DNA of 22,856 nucleotides from positions 1-22,856 of the IMG/VR virus record IMGVR_UViG_3300037258_001219; one strand, written 5' to 3'. The number at the start of each line of letters is the position of its first letter. Positions within the stretch are counted from its first letter, which is position 1. Below are positions 2,257 through 22,856 of this stretch, piece by piece. This DNA comes from a virus. The notes beneath the pieces were generated by a model. That model saw only the letters and a program-made list of their open reading frames with translations, did no database searches and had not been told where the DNA came from. The translations under genes were made by a program, and so were the position numbers.

Positions 2257-3541
2257 GCTGATCTGGTCGCTGTCGCGTGAACAGGCGCAGCGCATAAAAT
2301 ACGATTGGACATACCGGGCGCGCGACGAGCAGGCGCCGCCGCGCGGCGATTGGCGGATCTGGCTGCTGCTGGCCGGCCGCGGCTTTGGCAAGACCCGCAC
2401 CGGCGCCGAACTGGTGCGGGCGCGGGTCGAAGCGCATACGGCGCGGCGGATCGCGCTGGTCGCGCCGACCGCGGCGGATGCCCGCGATGTGATGGTCGAG
2501 GGCGAGAGCGGGCTGTTGGCGATCGCGCCGCCCGGGAACCGGCCGCTTTACGAGCCGTCGAAGCGGCGGCTGACCTGGCCCGACGGCGCCGTCGCGACGA
2601 CCTACAGCGCCGACGAGCCGGAGCGGCTCCGTGGCCCGCAGCACGATTTCGCCTGGTGCGATGAACTCGCGGCGTGGCGCTACCCGGCAGCCTGGGACAT
2701 GCTGATGTTCGGGCTGCGGCTCGGCGACGATCCGCGCGTCGTCGTCACGACGACGCCGCGGCCGACGCCGCTGATCCGCACCTTGCTGAGCGACCCGCAG
2801 GTAGTCGTGACGCGTGGCCGCACCGCCGCGAACCGCGCCCACCTGGCGCCGGCGTTTCTCGACCAGATCGTGCGGCGCTACGAGGGCACCCGGCTCGGCC
2901 GGCAGGAGCTCGACGCCGAGATCCTCGACGACATGCCGGGCGCCTTGTGGCAGCGCGGCATCATCGAGGCGGCGCGGGTCGGCAGCGCGCCCGAACTGGC
3001 GCGGGTCGTCGTCGCGATCGACCCCGCGGCCGGGTCGGGCGAGCATTCCGACGAGACCGGCATCGTCGTCGCCGGCCGTGACGCGGCTGGGCACGGCTAT
3101 GTGCTGGCGGACGCCTCGGGTCGCTACGCGCCGGCCGAATGGGCGCGCGTCGCGATTGCCGCCTACCGCGCCCACCGGGCCGACCGCATCGTCGCCGAGG
3201 TCAACAACGGCGGCGAGATGGTTGAGGCGACGCTGCGCGCGATCGATCCCGACGTGCCGTTCGGCGCGGTGCGGGCGGCCCGCGGCAAGGTCGCGCGGGC
3301 GGAGCCGATCGCTGCGCTCTACGAGCAAGGCCGGGTGCATCATCTCGGCGCATTGCCGCAGCTCGAAGACCAGATGTGCTCGTTCACGAGCGGTTTCGAC
3401 CGGCATGTCGCGGGGCATTCGCCGGACCGGGTCGACGCGCTCGTTTGGGCGCTCAACGAATTGCTGGTCGAGCGCTCTGTCGGCCAGGGCATTTTCGAGG
3501 CTTACCGCCGTCTGGCGGCAAAGGAGAACGAGGCTCCATGA
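2201..3541 (+). CDS. Terminase large subunit (packaging ATPase and nuclease)
   Basis: Motor that cuts concatemeric DNA and pumps it into the prohead through the portal. From the GTG at 2201 the protein has 446 aa: Walker A GRGFGKT (59-65), Walker B FAWCDE (150-155), coupling motif TTTPRPT (183-189). A C-terminal RNase-H-like nuclease follows, starting at VVVAIDPAAGSG (D274) and ending with D409/D412 in SPDRVDALVWALNE. It is the type found in alphaproteobacterial GTAs (their gene 2). The open frame extends to 2093, but that extension lies inside the small-subunit gene and is only Arg-rich. GTG 2201 has a purine-rich Shine-Dalgarno (GAGGGAGAGG, ending about 2194) and starts at the expected N-terminus. 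All catalytic motifs look intact. The stop overlaps the next start (ATGA). Confidence 0.96.
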   Translation: MNSLRASSLALLPQPLRNELIWSLSREQAQRIKYDWTYRARDEQAPPRGDWRIWLLLAGRGFGKTRTGAELVRARVEAHTARRIALVAPTAADARDVMVEGESGLLAIAPPGNRPLYEPSKRRLTWPDGAVATTYSADEPERLRGPQHDFAWCDELAAWRYPAAWDMLMFGLRLGDDPRVVVTTTPRPTPLIRTLLSDPQVVVTRGRTAANRAHLAPAFLDQIVRRYEGTRLGRQELDAEILDDMPGALWQRGIIEAARVGSAPELARVVVAIDPAAGSGEHSDETGIVVAGRDAAGHGYVLADASGRYAPAEWARVAIAAYRAHRADRIVAEVNNGGEMVEATLRAIDPDVPFGAVRAARGKVARAEPIAALYEQGRVHHLGALPQLEDQMCSFTSGFDRHVAGHSPDRVDALVWALNELLVERSVGQGIFEAYRRLAAKENEAP

Positions 3542-3981
3542 CCCTTCTCGTCAAAGACGCCAATACCACAATCCAGTCGCTGTCGACCGGGCTCGACGGT
3601 AGCGGCAACCTGGTGCCGGTGCACGCGCCGGCCACCACCAACTCGCAGGGCGTCGCCTCGCCGGTCGGGCCGCAGAACCCGCTGCCGGTCATCAACGCCG
3701 CCGGCAGCCCCGCAATCGACGGCAGCGGTACGGTAGCGGCCGGCGGCAGCGCGCAGATGCTGTTCGGCGGCATCGCGCCGGTGAACGGCTTTTTGATGCA
3801 GAACAACTCGTCGTCGGCACTGTGGATCTGCGATGTCGGGACGGCCTCGGCCGGCGGCGCCAGCATCCAAGTCGCCGCCAACGGCGGCATCTTTTGGACT
3901 TCGGCGGGTTACAAGCCGGCCGGCGCGGTCAGCCTGTTCGGCGCGACCACCGGCCAGGCCTTCGCCGCGCGGCGCTGGTAA
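3538..3981 (+). CDS. Small beta-rich accessory protein, unrecognised
   Basis: I do not recognise this 147-aa protein. It is Gly/Ala/Ser/Asn-rich with short predicted beta strands. The second half (MLFGGIAPVNGFLMQNNSSS, then ALWICDVGTASAGG and AVSLFGATTGQAF) reads like a compact beta-sandwich, as in capsid-decoration or fibre-associated proteins. It has no signal peptide, unlike its apparent counterpart at 8003-8377, with which it shares the theme 'N-x-[ST/G]-x3-W/L-I/N, then Gly/Ala-rich strands'. ATG 3538 overlaps the terminase stop and AAGGAG lies 11 nt upstream. It precedes a large spike-like gene, so a chaperone, linker or decoration role for that protein is possible. Function is inference only; coding status is well supported by spacing and codon use. 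Confidence 0.68.
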   Translation: MTLLVKDANTTIQSLSTGLDGSGNLVPVHAPATTNSQGVASPVGPQNPLPVINAAGSPAIDGSGTVAAGGSAQMLFGGIAPVNGFLMQNNSSSALWICDVGTASAGGASIQVAANGGIFWTSAGYKPAGAVSLFGATTGQAFAARRW

Positions 3982-3994
3982 AGGGATGCCGCCG

Positions 3995-6568
3995 ATGAGA
4001 TCGCTCGACCGCACGATCGGCGCGACCGCGCTGGTTGCCTGCGGGCTCGCGGCACTCAGCGCCTGGGCACAATCGCCGGGCAATTTCTCCACCCTGTCGA
4101 CGACCGGGACCGCGACGTTGAGTGGCGATGTGCTGGCCTGCTCCGGGCGGCCGTGGGTCGACGTCAAGTGCCCGAGCATGGCCGGCGGCGCGGTCGGTGA
4201 CGGCAGCCACGACGACACCGCGGCGATCCAGGCGACAATCGCCGCCGCCGTCACCAACGACTGGCCGGTGCACATCCCGGCCGGCACCTACAAGGTCACC
4301 TCAAAGCTGACGATCGATTATGCCGGCCGGGCGTCGAGCGGCTTCCGGCTGATCTCCGAGGGCGCGACGATCGACGGCCGCGGCATCGCGGCCGGCCCGG
4401 TGCTGCAGGTGAAATGTTCCGGCGGCACTCCATCCAGCCCCGCCAACTGCTTCTACTTCAAGGCGGAAGGCACGCTGTTTGTCGATGCCGATACGTCGGC
4501 CTACGCGGTGGTCATCGGCAATGCCGATTTCTCGGATGCGCACAACTCGCTGAAGCTCGACCATCTGGTCGTCAACAATGCCTCGACCGTGGCCGGTGCC
4601 GGCGGGCTGCAACTCAACTATGTGCTCGATTCCGACATCTTTACGATCGCCGATGCGGCGGGCGGTGCCGCCGGCATCGCTCTCGAGCAAACGCAGTTCT
4701 CGCGCATCTCGGGCGCCGGCTCGGCGTCGGGTACCGGCGGCACGGCGCTGCTGCTGGAACAGGGCTTCAACAACTCCAATTCGATCTTCGCCTTCGACAT
4801 GGAAGTCTCCCCGACCTGCCTCGGCATCACCGCGCCGCATGACGGCATGAACACGTTCATCTCGCCCTATTTCGCCTGCGCGACGGCGGTCAACGCGACG
4901 GCCAGCACGCACAACCTGCTGATCAACCCGACCTACGCCGGCAACGTCGTCAACCGCGGCCCGCAATCGACGGGGATCGAAACCGTGGGCTCGGGCAACT
5001 GGGCGAGCTGGCAGTTTCCGGCGGCGGCGACCTATACCGCCGCGCCGATCGACGACCACACCGTGCTGTCGTCGTTCAATGCGCCTGGCGCCGCGCTCGC
5101 GGTGACGCTGCCGCAGCCGAGCGCGGTTGCGCCCGGCTGGTGGATGGGGTTCGCCACCGACAACGGCAAGGGGCTGACTGTCGCCGCGCCGTCCGGGCTG
5201 ATCCTGTCGGGCGGTAAGGCGATATCGTCGGTGACGCTGGGTCCCGGCAACTACGAGTATCTGCAGCTCGCTTCCGATGGCAGCAACTATCGCATCGTCA
5301 CGGCGACCCGCGGCACGCTGGCGGCCAACGGCATGGAAAGCCGCGACTGGCCGGGCAGCTGGCTCTACCCCTCAACGTCCGGCTATGCGGCCGCGCTCGG
5401 CGACAACGGCAACGTCGTGTCGAGCTCCAACACGGCCGCCGGCCTGACCGTGACGCTGCCGTCGACGACCGGTCTGCCGACCGGCTGGTCGATGGGGTTC
5501 GCCACCGACAACGGCAAGGGGCTGAGCGTGCAGGTCAACGGTACCGCCGGCGGCCATATCCTCTACCCGCTCGCCAACCCGACACTGCAGACAGGGCTGA
5601 CGTTGGCCGGCAATTCCTACGAGTTCGTCACCTTGCAATACGACGGCGCCGACAACTTCCGCGTCGAGCAGGTGACGCCGGCGACGGCGCAGCAACTCGG
5701 CCTCGCCGGTACGGGCGGGCTGTCACGCTGGCTGTATCCGGCGGCAACCGCCTATAGCGCCGGCCAGGCCGACAACGGCACGGCGATCTCGGCGTTCAAC
5801 AGCCCGCTCGCCTACCTGACCGTAACGCTGCCGTCGATCACCGCACTCGAACCTGGCTGGACAATCGCGATCGCCAACGACAACAACAAACTCGCGGCCG
5901 TGCAGGTCAACGCGACGAGCGGCGGCCACATCCTCTACCCCGGCAGCGGCGGCACCGTCACGTCGCTGTCGCTGGCGAGCGGCAATTACGAAATGGCGAT
6001 CCTGCAGTTCGACGGCACCAACTTCCGCGTCTTGCAGTTGACCCCGGCGAGTGCGGCCGCGGCCGGCCTGAGCGGCGGGACCTGCACCGCCAAATGGATT
6101 TTCCCGGCGGTCAGCAGCTACGCCGCCGGCGTCACCGATTGCGGCACCACGATCTCCAACTTCAACTCGCCGATTTCCAGCCTCACCGTGACATTGCCGT
6201 CGACCACGGCGATCGCCGCCGGCTGGCGGATGGGCTTCGTCTCCGACAACAACAAGACCCTGACGGTGCAGGTCAACGGCACCAGCGGCGGGCTGATCCT
6301 GATCCCCGGCACACGCGGCGGCCAAAGCGCGATGACGCTCTACGCCGGCAATTACGAGCTCCTGCAGCTCGAATTCGACGGCTCGAACTTCCGCGTCATG
6401 GCGGCGACGCCGGCCACCGCCTCGGCCAACGGCATGCTGCCGGCGACCGGCACGCCGGCGTCGAGCTCGGCCGCTTGCCAAACCGGGCAGATCGAGCTCG
6501 ACAGCAACTACCTCTACGCCTGCACCGCGCCCAACACCTGGAAGCGCGCAGCCTGGAGTACGTTCTGA
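3995..6568 (+). CDS. Spike-like protein: signal peptide, pectate-lyase-type beta-helix, four C-terminal repeats
   Basis: An 857-aa protein likely to bind or degrade a surface polysaccharide. Residues 1-26 look like a Sec signal peptide (hydrophobic ATALVACGLAALSAWAQ). Residues about 55-115 carry the N-terminal signature of the Pectate_lyase_3 / GH28-related superfamily (GAVGDGSHDDTAAIQATIAAA, then VHIPAGTYKV), the usual start of phage tail-spike beta-helices. The helix runs to about 330. Four diverged repeats of about 115-123 aa follow (about 335-452, 453-575, 576-696, 697-813), each with W-x-[YF]-P-A, LTVTLPS, GW-x-MGF, DNNK and NYE-x-LQ-x-DG-x-NFRV. The end (CQTGQIELDSNYLYACTAPN) is typical of phage fibre C-termini. 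ATG 3995 is preferred because AAGGG lies 9 nt before it; ATG 3986 sits right on the Shine-Dalgarno. Catalytic residues cannot be assigned by eye. Confidence 0.82.
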   Translation: MRSLDRTIGATALVACGLAALSAWAQSPGNFSTLSTTGTATLSGDVLACSGRPWVDVKCPSMAGGAVGDGSHDDTAAIQATIAAAVTNDWPVHIPAGTYKVTSKLTIDYAGRASSGFRLISEGATIDGRGIAAGPVLQVKCSGGTPSSPANCFYFKAEGTLFVDADTSAYAVVIGNADFSDAHNSLKLDHLVVNNASTVAGAGGLQLNYVLDSDIFTIADAAGGAAGIALEQTQFSRISGAGSASGTGGTALLLEQGFNNSNSIFAFDMEVSPTCLGITAPHDGMNTFISPYFACATAVNATASTHNLLINPTYAGNVVNRGPQSTGIETVGSGNWASWQFPAAATYTAAPIDDHTVLSSFNAPGAALAVTLPQPSAVAPGWWMGFATDNGKGLTVAAPSGLILSGGKAISSVTLGPGNYEYLQLASDGSNYRIVTATRGTLAANGMESRDWPGSWLYPSTSGYAAALGDNGNVVSSSNTAAGLTVTLPSTTGLPTGWSMGFATDNGKGLSVQVNGTAGGHILYPLANPTLQTGLTLAGNSYEFVTLQYDGADNFRVEQVTPATAQQLGLAGTGGLSRWLYPAATAYSAGQADNGTAISAFNSPLAYLTVTLPSITALEPGWTIAIANDNNKLAAVQVNATSGGHILYPGSGGTVTSLSLASGNYEMAILQFDGTNFRVLQLTPASAAAAGLSGGTCTAKWIFPAVSSYAAGVTDCGTTISNFNSPISSLTVTLPSTTAIAAGWRMGFVSDNNKTLTVQVNGTSGGLILIPGTRGGQSAMTLYAGNYELLQLEFDGSNFRVMAATPATASANGMLPATGTPASSSAACQTGQIELDSNYLYACTAPNTWKRAAWSTF
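5143..5177 (+). repeat. Exact 35-bp direct repeat, copy 1
   Basis: Identical to 5491-5525, 348 bp apart, and in the same reading frame. It encodes the MGFATDNGKGL block of repeat unit 1 of the spike-like protein. The flanking repeat sequence is much more diverged, so this block has been kept identical by selection, gene conversion or a recent exchange. Confidence 0.9.
5491..5525 (+). repeat. Exact 35-bp direct repeat, copy 2
   Basis: Second copy of the 35-bp block at 5143-5177, in repeat unit 2 of the spike-like protein. Units 3 and 4 have related but changed versions (for example GW-x-IAIANDNNK and MGFVSDNNK). Confidence 0.9.
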
Positions 6569-7896
6569 TGCCTCCCCAAGGTGGTACGCGCACGCCGTTC
6601 AACGCTTCCTACACCTGGGGCCAGCAAGGCCTGGAAGCACAGTTCCGCGGCGTCTTTCAGCCCGACCAGGGGATCTTCTCGCCCGGCTACCCGCTGGCGC
6701 CGCTCGAACCGGAGCGGCTGCGCGTGTGGGACTACCCGGTCGGCGTCAATACGATCTACACGCCGCGCGCCTACGAGACGATCTCGTTCGCCGAGTTGCG
6801 GGCGCTCGCCGAGCATCACGACATCACGCGGCTGGCGATCGAGACCCGCAAGGACCAGGTCGAAAAGCTCGATTGGACGATCAAGTCGCGCACGCTGCAG
6901 CGGTCCGACGCCGACACGAGGGCACGCGCCGCGCGGGTTGCCGAATTCTGGCGGCGACCGGATGGCGAGCGCCCGTTCGCCAGCTGGCTGCGCGAGTTGC
7001 TCGAAGACCTGCTGGTGCTCGACGCGCCGGTACTCGAGATGCGCCGCAACCGGGGCGGACGGCTGATCGCGCTCGACATCGTCGACGGCGCGACGATCAA
7101 GGTGCTGATTGACGAAACCGGTCGGCGCCCGATGCCGCCGGCTCCGGCCTACGAGCAGGTCATCCACGGCCGGCCCTGGAAGCTGCTGACCAGCGACCAG
7201 CTGCTCTACGTGCCGCGCAACCCGCGGCCACATAAGGCCTACGGCTTCGGACCGGTCGAGCAGATCGTCATGACCGTCAACATCGGGCTGCGGCGGCAGG
7301 CGATGCAGCTGCGGCACTTTACCGACGGTAACGTGCCGCCGGGGCTGCTCAATGCCCCCGATGGCTGGAGCGCTGAGCAGATCCGACAGTTCCAGGAATG
7401 GTTCGACAGCGTGCTGGCCGGCAACGCCGGCGGGCGGGCCCGCCTGGTGTGGGGGCCGAGCGGCACCAGGTACCAGCCGTTCAAGGAGGCGCCCTACAAG
7501 GACGAGTTCGACGAGTGGCTGGCGCGCATCATCTGCTATGCGTTCTCGCTGCCGGCGACGGCCTTCACCCGCCAGGTCAACCGCGCCACCGCCGAGACCA
7601 CCCAGGAAGCCGCGCTGGCCGAGGGGCTGGCGCCGCTGATGGGGTGGATCAAGCGTCTCGCCGACCACGTGATCCAGGATCGGATGGGGCAGGCGGACCT
7701 CGAATTCGCCTGGATCGACGCGCGCTCGGTCGACCCCGCCGAACAGGCGAAGCTGCTCGACCTTTACGTGCGTGACGGCATCTACACGGTCAACGAGGCG
7801 CGCGACATTCTCGGTCTTGATCCGGTCGCCGGCGGCGACCAGGCGATGATTTATGGCGCCAGCGGCGCGACGCCGCTGCCGATGAGCCGCGAATAG
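6568..7896 (+). CDS. Portal protein
   Basis: Dodecameric ring at one capsid vertex through which DNA enters and to which the tail joins. The 442-aa protein has features of the HK97-type portal family (Phage_portal). There is an N-terminal arm, then RALAEHHDITRLAIETRKDQV, a wing region (LLVLDAPVLEMRRNRGGR) and the LIALDIVDGATIKVL strand. The clip/stem region includes DQLLYVPRNPRP, YGFGPVEQIVMTVN, NVPPGLLNAPDGWS and the channel-helix block FSLPATAFTRQVNRATAE. The C-terminus has the usual VNEARDILGLDPVAGGD motif. ATG 6568 overlaps the upstream stop (TGATG), so it is translationally coupled to the spike-like gene. That is odd, because in GTAs the portal gene directly follows terminase; here about 3 kb of accessory genes sits between them. 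Length is normal for the family. Confidence 0.95.
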   Translation: MPPQGGTRTPFNASYTWGQQGLEAQFRGVFQPDQGIFSPGYPLAPLEPERLRVWDYPVGVNTIYTPRAYETISFAELRALAEHHDITRLAIETRKDQVEKLDWTIKSRTLQRSDADTRARAARVAEFWRRPDGERPFASWLRELLEDLLVLDAPVLEMRRNRGGRLIALDIVDGATIKVLIDETGRRPMPPAPAYEQVIHGRPWKLLTSDQLLYVPRNPRPHKAYGFGPVEQIVMTVNIGLRRQAMQLRHFTDGNVPPGLLNAPDGWSAEQIRQFQEWFDSVLAGNAGGRARLVWGPSGTRYQPFKEAPYKDEFDEWLARIICYAFSLPATAFTRQVNRATAETTQEAALAEGLAPLMGWIKRLADHVIQDRMGQADLEFAWIDARSVDPAEQAKLLDLYVRDGIYTVNEARDILGLDPVAGGDQAMIYGASGATPLPMSRE

Positions 7897-7914
7897 CGCG
7901 CCCGGCGCGGTTTT
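7897..7914 (+). terminator. Weak GC hairpin with short T-run after the portal gene
   Basis: CGCGC (7897-7901) and GCGCG (7905-7909) can form a 5-bp stem with a 3-nt loop, followed by G and TTTT (7911-7914). It lies right after the portal stop in the 106-nt gap before the next gene. The stem is short and the surroundings are GC-rich, so this may be chance. The remainder of that gap shows no gene or other clear signal, apart from the GGGAG ribosome-binding site near 7989. Confidence 0.25.
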
Positions 7915-8002
7915 CGCCGGCACAAACGGCCGCGGCGGCGTCGGCAACCTGACCGGGTGCAGCGGCGCACCCGCATCTTCGCAAGTTTCGGGAGCCCTAT
8001 CG

Positions 8003-8377
8003 ATGCGCAGTTTCTCTGCCGCGCTCGCGTTCGCGCTGGTGCTTGGGACGAACCCCGTGGCGCGGGCCGCCGACATTGTGGCACCGAGCAGCCTGCCGAT
8101 CACCCAGACGGTGGTGACACTCGCGGCCGGCGTCGATGCCATTCTCGGCACCGCCACCAGTCGCCGATACCTCTGCCTGATGAACATCGGCACCGGCCTC
8201 GTCAACCTCGGCTTCGACGCCCCGGCCGCGGCAAGTGCCGGGTGGGCGCTCGAGGGCGCCTCGGACGCCGGCCATCAAGGCGGCGCGATGTGCTGGGAAA
8301 ACAGCATCGTTGCCGCCGGCGTCGTGCATGCGATCAGCGCGGCCGGATCGACCGTCGTTGTGCTGGAGGGGCGATGA
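8003..8377 (+). CDS. Small exported beta-rich protein
   Basis: A 124-aa protein I do not recognise. Residues 1-22 are a convincing Sec signal peptide (MRSFSAALAFALVLGTNPVARA, then AD), with a short basic n-region, a hydrophobic core and an A-R-A cleavage site. The mature part is beta-rich with RYLCLMNIGTGLVNLGF and a second cysteine in GGAMCWENSIVAAG; C57-type and C101-type cysteines could form a disulphide after export. It pairs with the following large fibre-like gene (ATGA overlap at the end), just as the small protein at 3538 pairs with the spike-like gene. It may be a cognate assembly factor or decoration protein. The exported character is seen in the sequence; the role is inference. Confidence 0.7.
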   Translation: MRSFSAALAFALVLGTNPVARAADIVAPSSLPITQTVVTLAAGVDAILGTATSRRYLCLMNIGTGLVNLGFDAPAAASAGWALEGASDAGHQGGAMCWENSIVAAGVVHAISAAGSTVVVLEGR

Positions 8378-10425
8378 TGACGCCGAGCATCGGATTGAGC
8401 AGGGCGGCGATCGTGCACATGTGGCAGTCCGCCAGCCGGTCACCGGGAGTTAGTGTCGCGCGGATCGGGTTGCGGCGGGCGGTCGCGGTCGGCGTGCTGG
8501 CGGCGGCGCCGCTGCTGCTGCAGCCGGCCTATGCGGGGCCGACACCCAGCACCGAGATGTTCGTCAACGCCGCGAACGCGGCGCTGCCGACAGCGCGGAA
8601 AAACCTCGGTCTCGAAGACGCGACCGGCAGCTACTACACGCTCGGCTCGGGCCTCTTTCCGCGCTACGCGACGGCGACCGCGACGACCGCGACGACGACC
8701 AATGGCAGCCCGACGATCACGGTCACCTCGGCCAGCAACATCAGCCTCGGCGACCAGGTCACCGCCGCGTTCGCGCCGAGCCTGACCTATGTCGCCAACA
8801 TCAGCGGCACGACCGTCACGTTGTCGGCCAACGCGACCGCGACCAATGCGTCGCCGGCCGCCGTCACGTTCGGCGCCAACCGCTTCAGTGCCGGCGCGAC
8901 CGTGCTGACCAACGCATTCGGCGCCGAGCAAGGCTATTTCGGCCAGGCGGCGCAGGGCCGCTCGACCTGGCTGGCGCAGTTCTTCCCCGGGCTCGACACG
9001 TTCGGCAGCGAGGCCCTGGTGGCGCTCGGCCCCGACGGCGGCGACACGATCATCGGCGGCGTGCGCAACAACCTGGCGGCGGCGACGATGGCGTTCCCGA
9101 CCGGCGTCACCGGCGTCGGCGTCTTGGAGAGCGGCGCGGCCGGCAACGCGGTGTTCGGCATCGGCGCGCAGGTCTGGCAGTACGATGCCGGGGTCGCGAC
9201 CAACGAGCTCAACACGAATAATTATTTCGGCGCGCCGTCGTCGGCGCTGCCGCCCGACCGCTCGATCGGCACGGCGCAGACCCTGCCGATTGTGCTGACA
9301 TTGGCGCCGCAGGGCAGCTACGCCTCGGCGATCGATTTGCAGCTCGGCGAGGGCGGCGCGGCGCCGCAGCCGGCCCTGACCGGCATCTACATGAACCCCG
9401 GCGCGGTTTCGACAACCGGCCTCTACATCGACAGCAGCGGGACGACCGGACCGACGACCGACGCGGTGTTGAGCGAGCCCGGCGCCGGCATCAACCTGCA
9501 GCTCCACACGACCGACACGATGGTCGCGACGAATTCGGTCATCACGGCGCAGGACCATACCGGCGCCTTCTGGTTTTACGTCAAGCAGAACGGCGACCTC
9601 GGCGGCGGCCAATTGCTCGCCGGCTACCAGTCGACCTATTCGCTGGCGTTGAACGGCGGCTCGACCTACACCGCGCTGAACGCCGCCTCGGGCGCGACCG
9701 GCATCCTGGTCAGCCCGAACAACAACGGCAGCAACGCGTCGCTGCGGCTGAGCAACACGTCGACGCAGGCGATGATCGCCGCGACCGACCCGACCGGCAT
9801 CGCGAGCTACATCCTGCAGCTCGGCGGCTCGGAAACCCATTTGCAGGTCGGCGGCACCGACGCATTGGCCTTGACCGCGTCCGGCATCACGTTGTCCGAC
9901 CCGGGCAACAGCAATGCCACGGCGCTCAGCACCGCGAGCGGCAACACGACGCTCGGCGAGAGCGGCAAGAGCGTGACGCTGGTCGCGCCGAAGATCGGCT
10001 CGGCCAAGGTGCCGGCGACGAACGCGTCGCAAAAGAACGTCTCGGCGCCGTCCGGCACGACCTCGACAACCGGCGTCATGATGGGGCTCGCGGGCGCGAT
10101 CACGCCGGCGACGACCGGCAACATCTTGATCATAATTTCCGGCGATATCGCCAGCGACACCTCGGGCGACGGCGCCAAAGTGCAGCTGCGCTATGGCACC
10201 GGCTCGGCGCCGACGAATGCCGCGGCGCTGACCGGCACGACCTGCGGCGGCCTGGTGCAGGACAGCGACGCAAGCGGTGACGGCGCCAAGGTGCCGTTCA
10301 GCGTGCAATGCATCGCCACCGACCTCTCGACCGGCACCGCGTACTGGCTCGACGTAGAGCTGGCGGCGGTCACCGGCGGCACCGCCGCGATCGCCGATAT
10401 CAGCCTATCGGCGCACGAGTTGTGA
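8374..10425 (+). CDS. Fibre-like protein with signal-type N-terminus and jelly-roll-like C-terminal domain
   Basis: A 683-aa Gly/Ala/Thr/Ser-rich protein, probably a receptor-binding fibre or other trimeric surface protein. From ATG 8374, residues about 33-54 form a hydrophobic segment with an AYA cleavage site (VAVGVLAAAPLLLQPAYA), so it looks exported. The n-region is long, and an internal ATG at 8419 would give a more ordinary signal peptide. Next come a fibre-like block (AALPTARKNLGLEDATG), low-complexity Thr/Ala strands and a long stretch of short beta repeats (SSG, NNNGSNASLRLSN, TDALALTASGITLSD). The last about 120 residues (GVMMGLAGAITPATTGNILI to ADISLSAHEL) look like a separate globular beta domain, of the sort seen at fibre tips in alphaproteobacterial phages. 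The start overlaps the previous stop. Exact function and catalytic activity are unknown. Confidence 0.75.
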   Translation: MMTPSIGLSRAAIVHMWQSASRSPGVSVARIGLRRAVAVGVLAAAPLLLQPAYAGPTPSTEMFVNAANAALPTARKNLGLEDATGSYYTLGSGLFPRYATATATTATTTNGSPTITVTSASNISLGDQVTAAFAPSLTYVANISGTTVTLSANATATNASPAAVTFGANRFSAGATVLTNAFGAEQGYFGQAAQGRSTWLAQFFPGLDTFGSEALVALGPDGGDTIIGGVRNNLAAATMAFPTGVTGVGVLESGAAGNAVFGIGAQVWQYDAGVATNELNTNNYFGAPSSALPPDRSIGTAQTLPIVLTLAPQGSYASAIDLQLGEGGAAPQPALTGIYMNPGAVSTTGLYIDSSGTTGPTTDAVLSEPGAGINLQLHTTDTMVATNSVITAQDHTGAFWFYVKQNGDLGGGQLLAGYQSTYSLALNGGSTYTALNAASGATGILVSPNNNGSNASLRLSNTSTQAMIAATDPTGIASYILQLGGSETHLQVGGTDALALTASGITLSDPGNSNATALSTASGNTTLGESGKSVTLVAPKIGSAKVPATNASQKNVSAPSGTTSTTGVMMGLAGAITPATTGNILIIISGDIASDTSGDGAKVQLRYGTGSAPTNAAALTGTTCGGLVQDSDASGDGAKVPFSVQCIATDLSTGTAYWLDVELAAVTGGTAAIADISLSAHEL

Positions 10426-10485
10426 GGGTCGGTCGCAGCGGCCATGGCCGTGCGCAACCGAAAACAAATCGAGGAGATCATCGGC

Positions 10486-11703
10486 ATGCGGCTCTATTTT
10501 CCGATCGCCAAAGTTGACGGCGAGCAGCGCATGGTCTGGGGCTACGCCTCGACCGAGGCGGCCGACGACCAGGGCGAAACCGTCACGCGCGCGGCCTTGG
10601 CCGCGGCACTCGACGACTACATGCAGTTCGCCAATATCCGCGAGATGCACCGCCCCTCGGCGGTCGGCGTCGCCCAGGAGGCGGCGATCGATGACAGGGG
10701 ACTCTATCTCGGCGCGAAAATCGTCGATCGGGACGCCTGGGCGAAGGTCGTCGAAGGCGTCTACAAGGGGTTTTCGATCGGCGGTCGCGTGACGCAGCGC
10801 GATCCGGCCGATCGTCGCATTATCACCGGCCTGACGTTGACCGAGATCTCGGTCGTCGACCGCCCGGCAAACCCGGAGGCGGTGTTCGACTGCTGGAAGC
10901 GCGCGATCGCGACAGCGGACGAGGGCGACGACGGCGCGGCGAGCGGCGGCGCCGCCGATTTTGCCGACCCGGGCTATCAGGCCGACGGCAGGGCTCGCTA
11001 CCCGCTCGACACCGTGCGCCATATCCGCGCCGCCTGGACCTTCATCCACCAGCCGTCCAACGCGCGCCGCTACACGGCGCCGCAGCTGGCGCATATCAAC
11101 GCGCGCATCGTCGCGGCCTGGCGGACGCACATCGATCCACACGGGCCGCCGGCGAACGCCGGCGAACCGGCGGTCGCGCGCAAGGACTTCGCCGCCGAGC
11201 GCCCGGCTCGGATCATCCTCGATCTCGACTGGCTTGACGGCCGCATCGCCGCCGAGGCCGCTCCGTTACGTCAGCGGCTGTCGTCGATGATCGATGAATT
11301 GCGCCAGTATCTGGCCTCGCACGGCGGCGAGGCCGGCATCGCTCCGGCCGTCGCCGCGGCTCCGCTGGCCGCGATGGCGATTGCCAGCCGGCTGCGGCAG
11401 GCGAACCCGGCCACTCCCGCGCCGCTCGCCGACGGGCTCGCGAAGCTCGCTGACGCGATCCTGCCGCGGCTCGACGCGCTACAGCAGCGCGTCGACGACA
11501 TCGCCCGCACGCCGCTGCCGCCGCAGACCATTGCGCAAGGGATCGCCGGGTTCTCGAAACAGGAGGACGCGGGCCGCCGTGAGACGGCGGCACAGGATGT
11601 CTTCGCCGCCCTTGCCCGCATGAGCGAGGAGGAGCGCACCCTGACCCTGATCAAGGTGGCGCACGCCGCCCCGATTGCCCCGTTCTCTCGGCCGCCGCGC
11701 TGA
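10486..11703 (+). CDS. Prohead protease (XkdF/S78-like) with DUF6582 segment and scaffold-like tail
   Basis: Matures the prohead by cleaving capsid or scaffold protein. Of 405 aa, residues 1-130 match the XkdF-like/S78 family: GEQRMVWGYASTEAADDQGE, then IREMHRPSAVG (H55, likely catalytic), VYKGFSIGG (S97, likely nucleophile) and LTEISVVDRPANP. A DUF6582-like segment follows (ADFADPGYQ, YPLDTVRHIRAAWTFIHQP, YTAPQLAHINARI; about 157-210). The C-terminal 180 residues are Ala-rich, helical and partly coiled, like the scaffolding delta domain in other phages, so protease and scaffold may be fused. ATG 10486 is preferred over 10444: GAGGAG lies 9 nt before it and the conserved fold starts there. 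It differs from the protease type of the RcGTA cluster, so the head module has a mixed ancestry. Confidence 0.87.
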   Translation: MRLYFPIAKVDGEQRMVWGYASTEAADDQGETVTRAALAAALDDYMQFANIREMHRPSAVGVAQEAAIDDRGLYLGAKIVDRDAWAKVVEGVYKGFSIGGRVTQRDPADRRIITGLTLTEISVVDRPANPEAVFDCWKRAIATADEGDDGAASGGAADFADPGYQADGRARYPLDTVRHIRAAWTFIHQPSNARRYTAPQLAHINARIVAAWRTHIDPHGPPANAGEPAVARKDFAAERPARIILDLDWLDGRIAAEAAPLRQRLSSMIDELRQYLASHGGEAGIAPAVAAAPLAAMAIASRLRQANPATPAPLADGLAKLADAILPRLDALQQRVDDIARTPLPPQTIAQGIAGFSKQEDAGRRETAAQDVFAALARMSEEERTLTLIKVAHAAPIAPFSRPPR

Positions 11704-11732
11704 GCCGTACCGAGTTTCCCGCCTCCCCATCG

Positions 11733-11757
11733 ACCCGGCCGCTTTGCCGGGTTTTTT
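11733..11757 (+). terminator. Intrinsic terminator between protease and capsid genes
   Basis: ACCCGGC (11733-11739) and GCCGGGT (11746-11752) form a perfect 7-bp stem with a 6-nt loop (CGCTTT), followed by a T-run (11752-11757). This is a textbook Rho-independent terminator, and it sits inside the head operon. It is likely to reduce read-through, or to end an mRNA 3' boundary, before the highly expressed capsid gene. Confidence 0.85.
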
Positions 11758-22316: not shown

Positions 22317-22856
22317 ATGCAAGTCCTCGCCTATCTGCTCGCCCGCTTCAGCGAGCCGTCGAGCTATGCCGGGCTCGGTGCCGTGCTGGCGCTGCTCGGC
22401 TTGAACCTGCCCGCGGGCACAGTCAGCCAGATCGTGCAGCTGCTGGCCGGCGCCTGCGGCCTGCTTGCGCTTCTGCTGAAAGAGCGCGGGCTGATCCAAG
22501 CAATCGTGCTGGTCTTTGCGGTATTGCCAGCGCTGACCGGCTGCGCCGGTGCGCCGGCGGTGCTCGGCGGCCTCGGCGCCGCCGGTTCGATCTATACCGC
22601 GGTCGACAAGGCGACCGAGGCGGTCAGCCCGGTCATCGCAACCGGCTGCCAGGACTACCAGAAGGGCAAGGCGGCGGCCGATGCGACGGTCGCGACCGGC
22701 ATCGTGCCGCAAAGCGTCGCCGGCAAGGTGACCGCGATCGAGCAATACGGCGACGCCGCCTGCGCCAACCCGCCGTCCGGCGATCCGCTCTCGACCGCGA
22801 TCTGGCTCGGCGGCCTCGCCGGCCAGATCACGACGCTGGCCAGCGCGGCGAAGTAG
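22317..22856 (+). CDS. Holin-like membrane protein with a lipobox (possible holin-lipoprotein fusion)
   Basis: A 179-aa protein with two parts. Residues 1-57 read like a small phage holin: LARFSEPSSYAGLGAVLALL, a turn LNLPAGT, then a second helix IVQLLAGACGLLALLL and KERG. Right after this comes a third hydrophobic stretch (IQAIVLVFAVLPALTGC, about 60-76) ending in a perfect lipobox L73-T74-G75-C76. Following it is a hydrophilic mature part of about 100 residues with two cysteines and a Gly/Ala-rich end. It may be a true fusion of holin and outer-membrane lipoprotein (spanin-like), or two products with an internal GTG (22507) start. ATG 22317 follows AAAGGG at about 7-8 nt; upstream in-frame residues overlap the terminator. 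Confidence 0.78.
   Translation: MQVLAYLLARFSEPSSYAGLGAVLALLGLNLPAGTVSQIVQLLAGACGLLALLLKERGLIQAIVLVFAVLPALTGCAGAPAVLGGLGAAGSIYTAVDKATEAVSPVIATGCQDYQKGKAAADATVATGIVPQSVAGKVTAIEQYGDAACANPPSGDPLSTAIWLGGLAGQITTLASAAK

Follow-up and report, generated by a model that had tools for sequence, protein, structure and literature searches.

The DNA considered here, referred to as the window, comprises the 22,856 bases of an IMG/VR virus record and covers a phage late region. Its genes are arranged in the order repressor, TerS/TerL, g3538, spike, portal, accessory slot, prohead protease and major capsid protein (MCP), followed by a tail module like that of gene transfer agents (GTAs) that includes an Rcc01698-type hub. 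The window belongs to a family of GTA-like siphophages that infect soil Alphaproteobacteria, and the phage itself is temperate; relatives were found both among viral contigs and in Alphaproteobacteria assembled from metagenomes (cited below by L numbers). Three proteins of this late region, a spike, a small protein and a fibre-like protein, begin with predicted Sec signal peptides, and it is their export and possible place on the virion that are addressed here. The genes from g3538 to the prohead protease, with their protein features, lie on the plus strand of the window.

The three genes are open and start at 3995, 8003 and 8374, just as the initial annotation had it, and its description of a signal peptide on each, with n-region, h-region and AxA cleavage site, also held. 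The spike (3995..6568, 857 amino acids) consists of a signal peptide, a linker, a beta-helix of the Pect-lyase_RHGA_epim type, repeated beta modules of ~115 amino acids and a tail-type C-terminus. Its signal peptide of 25 residues (3995..4069) reads MRSLDRTIGATALVACGLAALSAWA, with the predicted AWA/Q cut followed by QSPGNF, and the first nine mature residues, QSPGNFSTL (4070..4096), represent a candidate docking peptide, of which QSPGNF is invariant in alignment A1; part of the spike family has a mature start of the alternative QTISG.. type. The small protein (8003..8377, 124 amino acids) carries a signal peptide of 22 residues (8003..8068; MRSFSAALAFALVLGTNPVARA, ARA/A cut, then ADIV) that is also found in the relatives L012 and L039, and two invariant cysteines follow the signal. 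In the case of the fibre-like protein (8374..10425, 683 amino acids), the signal peptide region (8374..8535) ends in ARIGLRRAVAVGVLAAAPLLLQPAYA, with an AYA/G cut ahead of GPTP. The signal peptide is 54 residues long if translation begins at the first ATG (8374, which overlaps the stop of the preceding gene) and 39 residues long if the true start is 8419, and either start keeps the hydrophobic and AYA portion. Directly upstream of the spike lies g3538 (3538..3981, 147 amino acids; phrog_22789, unknown function), a small companion protein without a signal peptide, whose gene overlaps the TerL stop by 4 nucleotides. The surrounding genes include the portal (6571..7896; PF04860, phrog_2662) and the prohead protease (10444..11703; PF04586, PHROG head maturation protease), and a terminator-like hairpin with a T-run (11732-11753) separates the protease and MCP genes.

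Signal peptides were scored by a rule of our own rather than by SignalP, requiring a positively charged n-region, an h-region of 8-14 residues and small residues at -3/-1, on gene calls that were blind to signal peptides. The rule recognises OmpA, PhoA, MalE, Bla, DsbA, PelB and LamB; LacI and RecA are rejected, and LacY stays under the threshold. The first 14 spike relatives (60-75% identity) were found with peptide patterns lying outside the N-terminus, and are therefore unbiased with respect to the signal peptide. With genome contigs and 80 loci sampled by way of their portals added, the distinct spike N-termini number 42, one of them from a spike cut by a contig end. In all 42 the hydrophobic stretch leads into A-x-A and a Q that mostly begins QSPGNF or QTISG, and 36 of the 42 pass the strict rule. 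Thus the homologues lacking a hydrophobic N-terminus that, according to the initial annotation, would have spoken against export were not encountered among the spikes. By the same rule none of 274 core proteins passes (portal 0/77, protease 0/60, MCP 0/42, TerL 0/35, g3538 0/34, g13360 0/26), and of 1349 internal Met positions only one does. By this rule, the spike has the n-region, h-region, -3/-1 residues and conservation of a substrate of Sec and signal peptidase I.

Such N-termini might be an artefact, arising by chance from wrongly called starts or from Ala-rich composition. Residue-shuffled N-termini pass the rule in 4-17% of cases, indicating that Ala-rich composition helps, and for the 8374 gene two starts are possible. 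However, conservation in 42/42 spikes rules out chance, and together with the 0/274 core genes and the independent evidence from cysteines described below, it largely refutes this explanation for the spike, leaving an artefact extremely improbable.

The cysteines of the mature spike behave as pairs. Among 36 aligned spikes they fall into eight column pairs with matching patterns of presence: the pairs 49/59, 141/152, 275/295 and 828/843 occur in all or nearly all of the sequences, both members of 205/219 are present in one set of 21 sequences and both of 697/716 in one set of 15, one pair lies in an insertion shared by the same 2 sequences, and cysteine 855 and a cysteine of the C-terminal extension occur in equal numbers (10 sequences), although the spikes share ancestry and independent gains of pairs are fewer than these counts. 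Mature cysteines without a partner amount to 3 singletons, all other unpaired cysteines being located within the signal peptide, where they are gained and lost singly. The count of mature cysteines is even in 29 of 30 spikes, with values of 10, 12 or, once, 13. No such pairing was found in portal, TerL, MCP, g3538 or g13360; four portal cysteine columns sharing one pattern trace to only two sequences. Co-varying pairs of this kind, with negative controls, are suggestive of disulfide bonds, and hence of folding outside the cytoplasm in an oxidising compartment. Two families of the small protein of the cassette likewise have two invariant cysteines each after the signal. Taken with the signal peptides, the sequences indicate that the three proteins are very probably exported and oxidised.

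The hydrophobic N-terminus could instead remain uncleaved, as part of a virion protein that is assembled in the cytoplasm and uses this helix for membrane activity or anchoring, since a hydrophobic helix on the spike could insert into membranes and the rule used here is blind to cleavage. This arrangement is quite unlikely, as across the spikes the h-region diverges while A-x-A/Q and the mature start stay constant: the signal peptide drifts with omega of up to 0.65, against 0.10-0.23 for the mature part, which is similar to the portal. In addition, stray cysteines are tolerated only in the signal segment, whereas the mature cysteines are paired.

The predicted fold of the spike is of the spike type. 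A Pfam search matches the pectate-lyase/rhamnogalacturonase-A family PF12708 (E 4e-9), and in PHROGs the C-terminus matches a tail protein and the beta-helix matches tail spikes. An AlphaFold2 model (pLDDT 69.6) consists of a beta-helix with repeated beta modules and matches phage fibres, spikes and depolymerases at low TM-scores, so that these matches represent a fold class and not close homology, the beta-helix being predicted at moderate confidence. The beta-helix motif begins at about residue 65, leaving a linker of ~40 residues after cleavage, and no dedicated N-terminal particle-binding domain of the P22 type is present in the spike. Family searches of the proteins found no outer-membrane anchor or autotransporter domain.

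The initial annotation had offered two readings, morons expressed in the lysogen or an unusual route of fibre assembly, and for the spike it is the latter that fits better. In 38 of 51 contigs holding both sides of the slot, the spike lies between TerL/g3538 and portal; among the 13 contigs without it, portals near 70% identity are confined to L067 and L071, all the others being at 63% or less. Divergence of the spike follows that of core genes, with Mantel r of 0.86 for spike and portal, 0.78 for spike and TerL and 0.68 for spike and MCP, compared with 0.76 for portal and TerL and 0.90 for portal and MCP. Overlaps or abutments often link the gene to its neighbours, and no convincing promoter or terminator-like signal of its own was found, using a sigma-70 scan that is weak at this GC content. 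A moron would be expected to be sporadic and not to co-evolve with core genes, and the spike is neither of these. The moron reading is thus weakened by synteny, co-evolution with the portal and overlaps, and the fixed place, co-evolution and gene coupling argue for a late structural role of the spike.

For the fibres, the situation is more variable. In many relatives the slot between portal and protease (or between spike and portal) encodes a small protein and, after it, at least one fibre-like protein, all of them with signals of their own, as in the window and in L010, L011, L012, L022, L026, L027, L038, L039, L042, L047, L070 and L075, and in L041, L051 and L053 it holds runs of exported proteins. 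The 8003/8374 cassette itself varies between relatives. Most slot fibres have a mature N-terminal motif, ..NAANAxLPxARxNLG.., ahead of unrelated distal parts; in the window the motif (..M..NAANAALPTARKNLGL) is at 8536..8619 and is common to otherwise unrelated fibres. This combination of a shared ARxNLG motif and unrelated distal parts is, from its sequence features, the usual design of a fibre with an anchor and a tip. In L006 (5120-7399) and L015 (7855-10134), the small protein and fibre are in one open frame without a stop, with a second signal-like segment, MMRRTCTALLASTALVTRALA, in mid-frame. It appeared likely by eye, from a common ..AARxW end, that g3538 is homologous to the signal-bearing small proteins, and this was rejected at hhalign probabilities of 1.7% and 0.2%.

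The C-terminal domain (10024..10422) of the window fibre, P0003, also occurs in ordinary phage fibres without a signal (for example L118, L122, L124-L130, L133 and L135) as well as in proteins with one (L115-L117, L120, L121, L132, L134 and L039), and its TC..NC cysteine pair is found only in the signal-bearing members. Similarly, a Gly-rich fibre lacks a signal in about ten loci, where its relatives have irregular cysteine numbers, and has both a signal and 4 mature cysteines in L051 and L060. Ordinary fibre domains thus seem to have acquired signal peptides on more than one occasion, including in contigs of 45-63% GC. Scanning viral sequences with P0003 alone as query gave no relatives, and among isolated phages homologues were not found for P0001 or for the fibres of L041 (4484), L075 or L042, with P0003 matching by its C-terminal domain alone. 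Runs of signal-bearing fibre-like genes also occur in L120 (885-4408), L132 (638-7500) and L134 (1285-3108), contigs of quite different base composition, suggesting that the trait extends beyond the family of the window. Long Gly-rich fibres without a signal that start with MTQIFIxSGTSWTVP (L018 at 10509, L048 at 8837, L054 at 9685 and others) are typical of one branch of the family.

Several further features of the accessory slot are worth recording. A second, incomplete copy of the portal gene's 3' region is present downstream of the full portal in L009 (5864-6166), L031 (5719-6021), L037 (9470-10177), L043 (8855-9296), L053 (5666-5911) and L075 (3562-4113), as if insertion of the cassette between portal and protease duplicated the portal end. 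The slots of L041 (5838-6902) and L051 (9551-10636) encode exported proteins that resemble alpha/beta-hydrolases, carry GGGRRLF close to the end and are possibly esterases acting on surface polysaccharide. Slot proteins of ~100 residues with an LSGC lipobox are found in L045 (9381), L053 (10687), L063 (7059) and L068 (5628), and the last gene of the window (22317-22856, cut by its end) has an ALTGC lipobox after hydrophobic stretches.

Export by itself does not place a protein on the virion. The same proteins could be exported and disulfide-bonded and yet act in the periplasm or on the surface of the lysogen or dying cell, for example by masking or cutting the receptor polysaccharide, resulting in superinfection exclusion, release from exopolysaccharide or the avoidance of re-adsorption to debris. 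The signal and cysteine evidence fits this possibility too, and some of the signal-bearing cargo is enzyme-like, as evidenced by a weak alpha/beta-hydrolase match in L051 and by the pectate-lyase-like P0001 and L075. There is also a precedent in lambda Lom, an outer-membrane protein with a signal peptide that is expressed in lysogeny and encoded between tail spike and fibre genes (PMC12309495); a Sec signal peptide and a place among fibre genes are common to Lom and the proteins discussed here. However, Lom is an outer-membrane beta-barrel of lysogeny, whereas the genes here belong to the late core set and encode proteins of spike and fibre fold. The core status of the spike, its coupling to neighbours, with no convincing promoter or terminator of its own found, and its co-evolution with the portal, the lack of any detected outer-membrane anchor or autotransporter domain, and the occurrence of the same domains without signals in ordinary fibres all argue against a function away from the virion, which is the main alternative and a plausible one, though less probable than a virion role.

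Known systems resemble the window in part. The receptor-binding proteins of tailed phages are assumed to reach their folded and assembled state within the cytoplasm, a reducing environment. The beta-helix tailspikes and depolymerases of Dettilon (gp208), Klebsiella K2-2 (tailspike protein), HK620 and Sf6 share with the spike a pectate-lyase-type beta-helix (PF12708), a position in the late structural operon and a tail-type C-terminus; they are made in the cytoplasm and are not known to carry a signal peptide. The window spike differs from them in its signal peptide, in five to six cysteine pairs of the disulfide type, and in having no separate N-terminal particle-binding domain. Phage proteins that do use Sec include signal-peptide and signal-arrest-release endolysins, Rz1 lipoproteins and filamentous-phage coat proteins (e.g. 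PMC3765740, PMC8951688), which are lysis proteins or parts of membrane-assembled virions and not spikes or fibres of tailed phages. According to one study, the target proteins of phage diversity-generating retroelements are without signal peptides, and it takes this absence as support for a phage origin (PMC6199706). Sec signals on tailed-phage fibres or spikes are unreported in the literature searched, the coverage of which was partial. The head spikes of the Rhodobacter capsulatus GTA (RcGTA) offer another parallel, as a small-protein gene (Rcc01079, the base) likewise precedes a fibre gene (Rcc01080) in an alphaproteobacterial GTA-like particle, although homology to the base was undetected and no signal peptide is mentioned for the RcGTA proteins in PMC10218006. 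Only residues 2-10 of the RcGTA head fibre hold it to its base (PMC7296036, PMC10218006), and a mature N-terminus as short as QSPGNFSTL could therefore dock.

Based on these observations, the chances appear evenly balanced that the spikes and fibres are exported by Sec, disulfide-bonded and docked to particles outside the cytoplasm as virion parts. The proteins would be made late, alongside the head genes, exported by Sec and cut after A-x-A by signal peptidase I, and would fold with disulfide bonds outside the cytoplasm. Mature spikes and fibres may then be held in the periplasm and dock onto completed particles when lysis breaches the inner membrane, through their short conserved mature N-termini, with g3538, signal-less and encoded just upstream of the spike, as a candidate docking partner; once docked, spikes might bind or cleave capsule or exopolysaccharide. 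The more general proposal, that receptor-binding spikes and fibres pass through Sec, become oxidised in the periplasm and join particles at membrane breach, and that this route has arisen repeatedly by the addition of signal peptides to fibre genes, is put forward tentatively. Several points weigh against reading these proteins as exported and docked virion parts. As heads and tails are built in the cytoplasm, docking could not take place before lysis, and the virion location of spikes and fibres is inferred. The signal predictor is home-made. The spike is absent from its slot in L067, L071, L074 and phages with portals at or below ~60% identity, and is therefore inessential to this head type. 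In addition, a PDB sequence search detected no similarity of g3538 to the RcGTA spike base, and the g3538 model is of low confidence.

If the exported spikes and fibres are virion parts, an extracytoplasmic maturation step would be added to the assembly of tailed phages, and the way in which disulfide-hardened spikes for soil polysaccharides can be produced would be explained. If they are not, they would form a large class of late phage effectors that are exported and have fibre folds. In both cases, the annotation rule that a signal peptide on a fibre-like gene means bacterial origin would be wrong.

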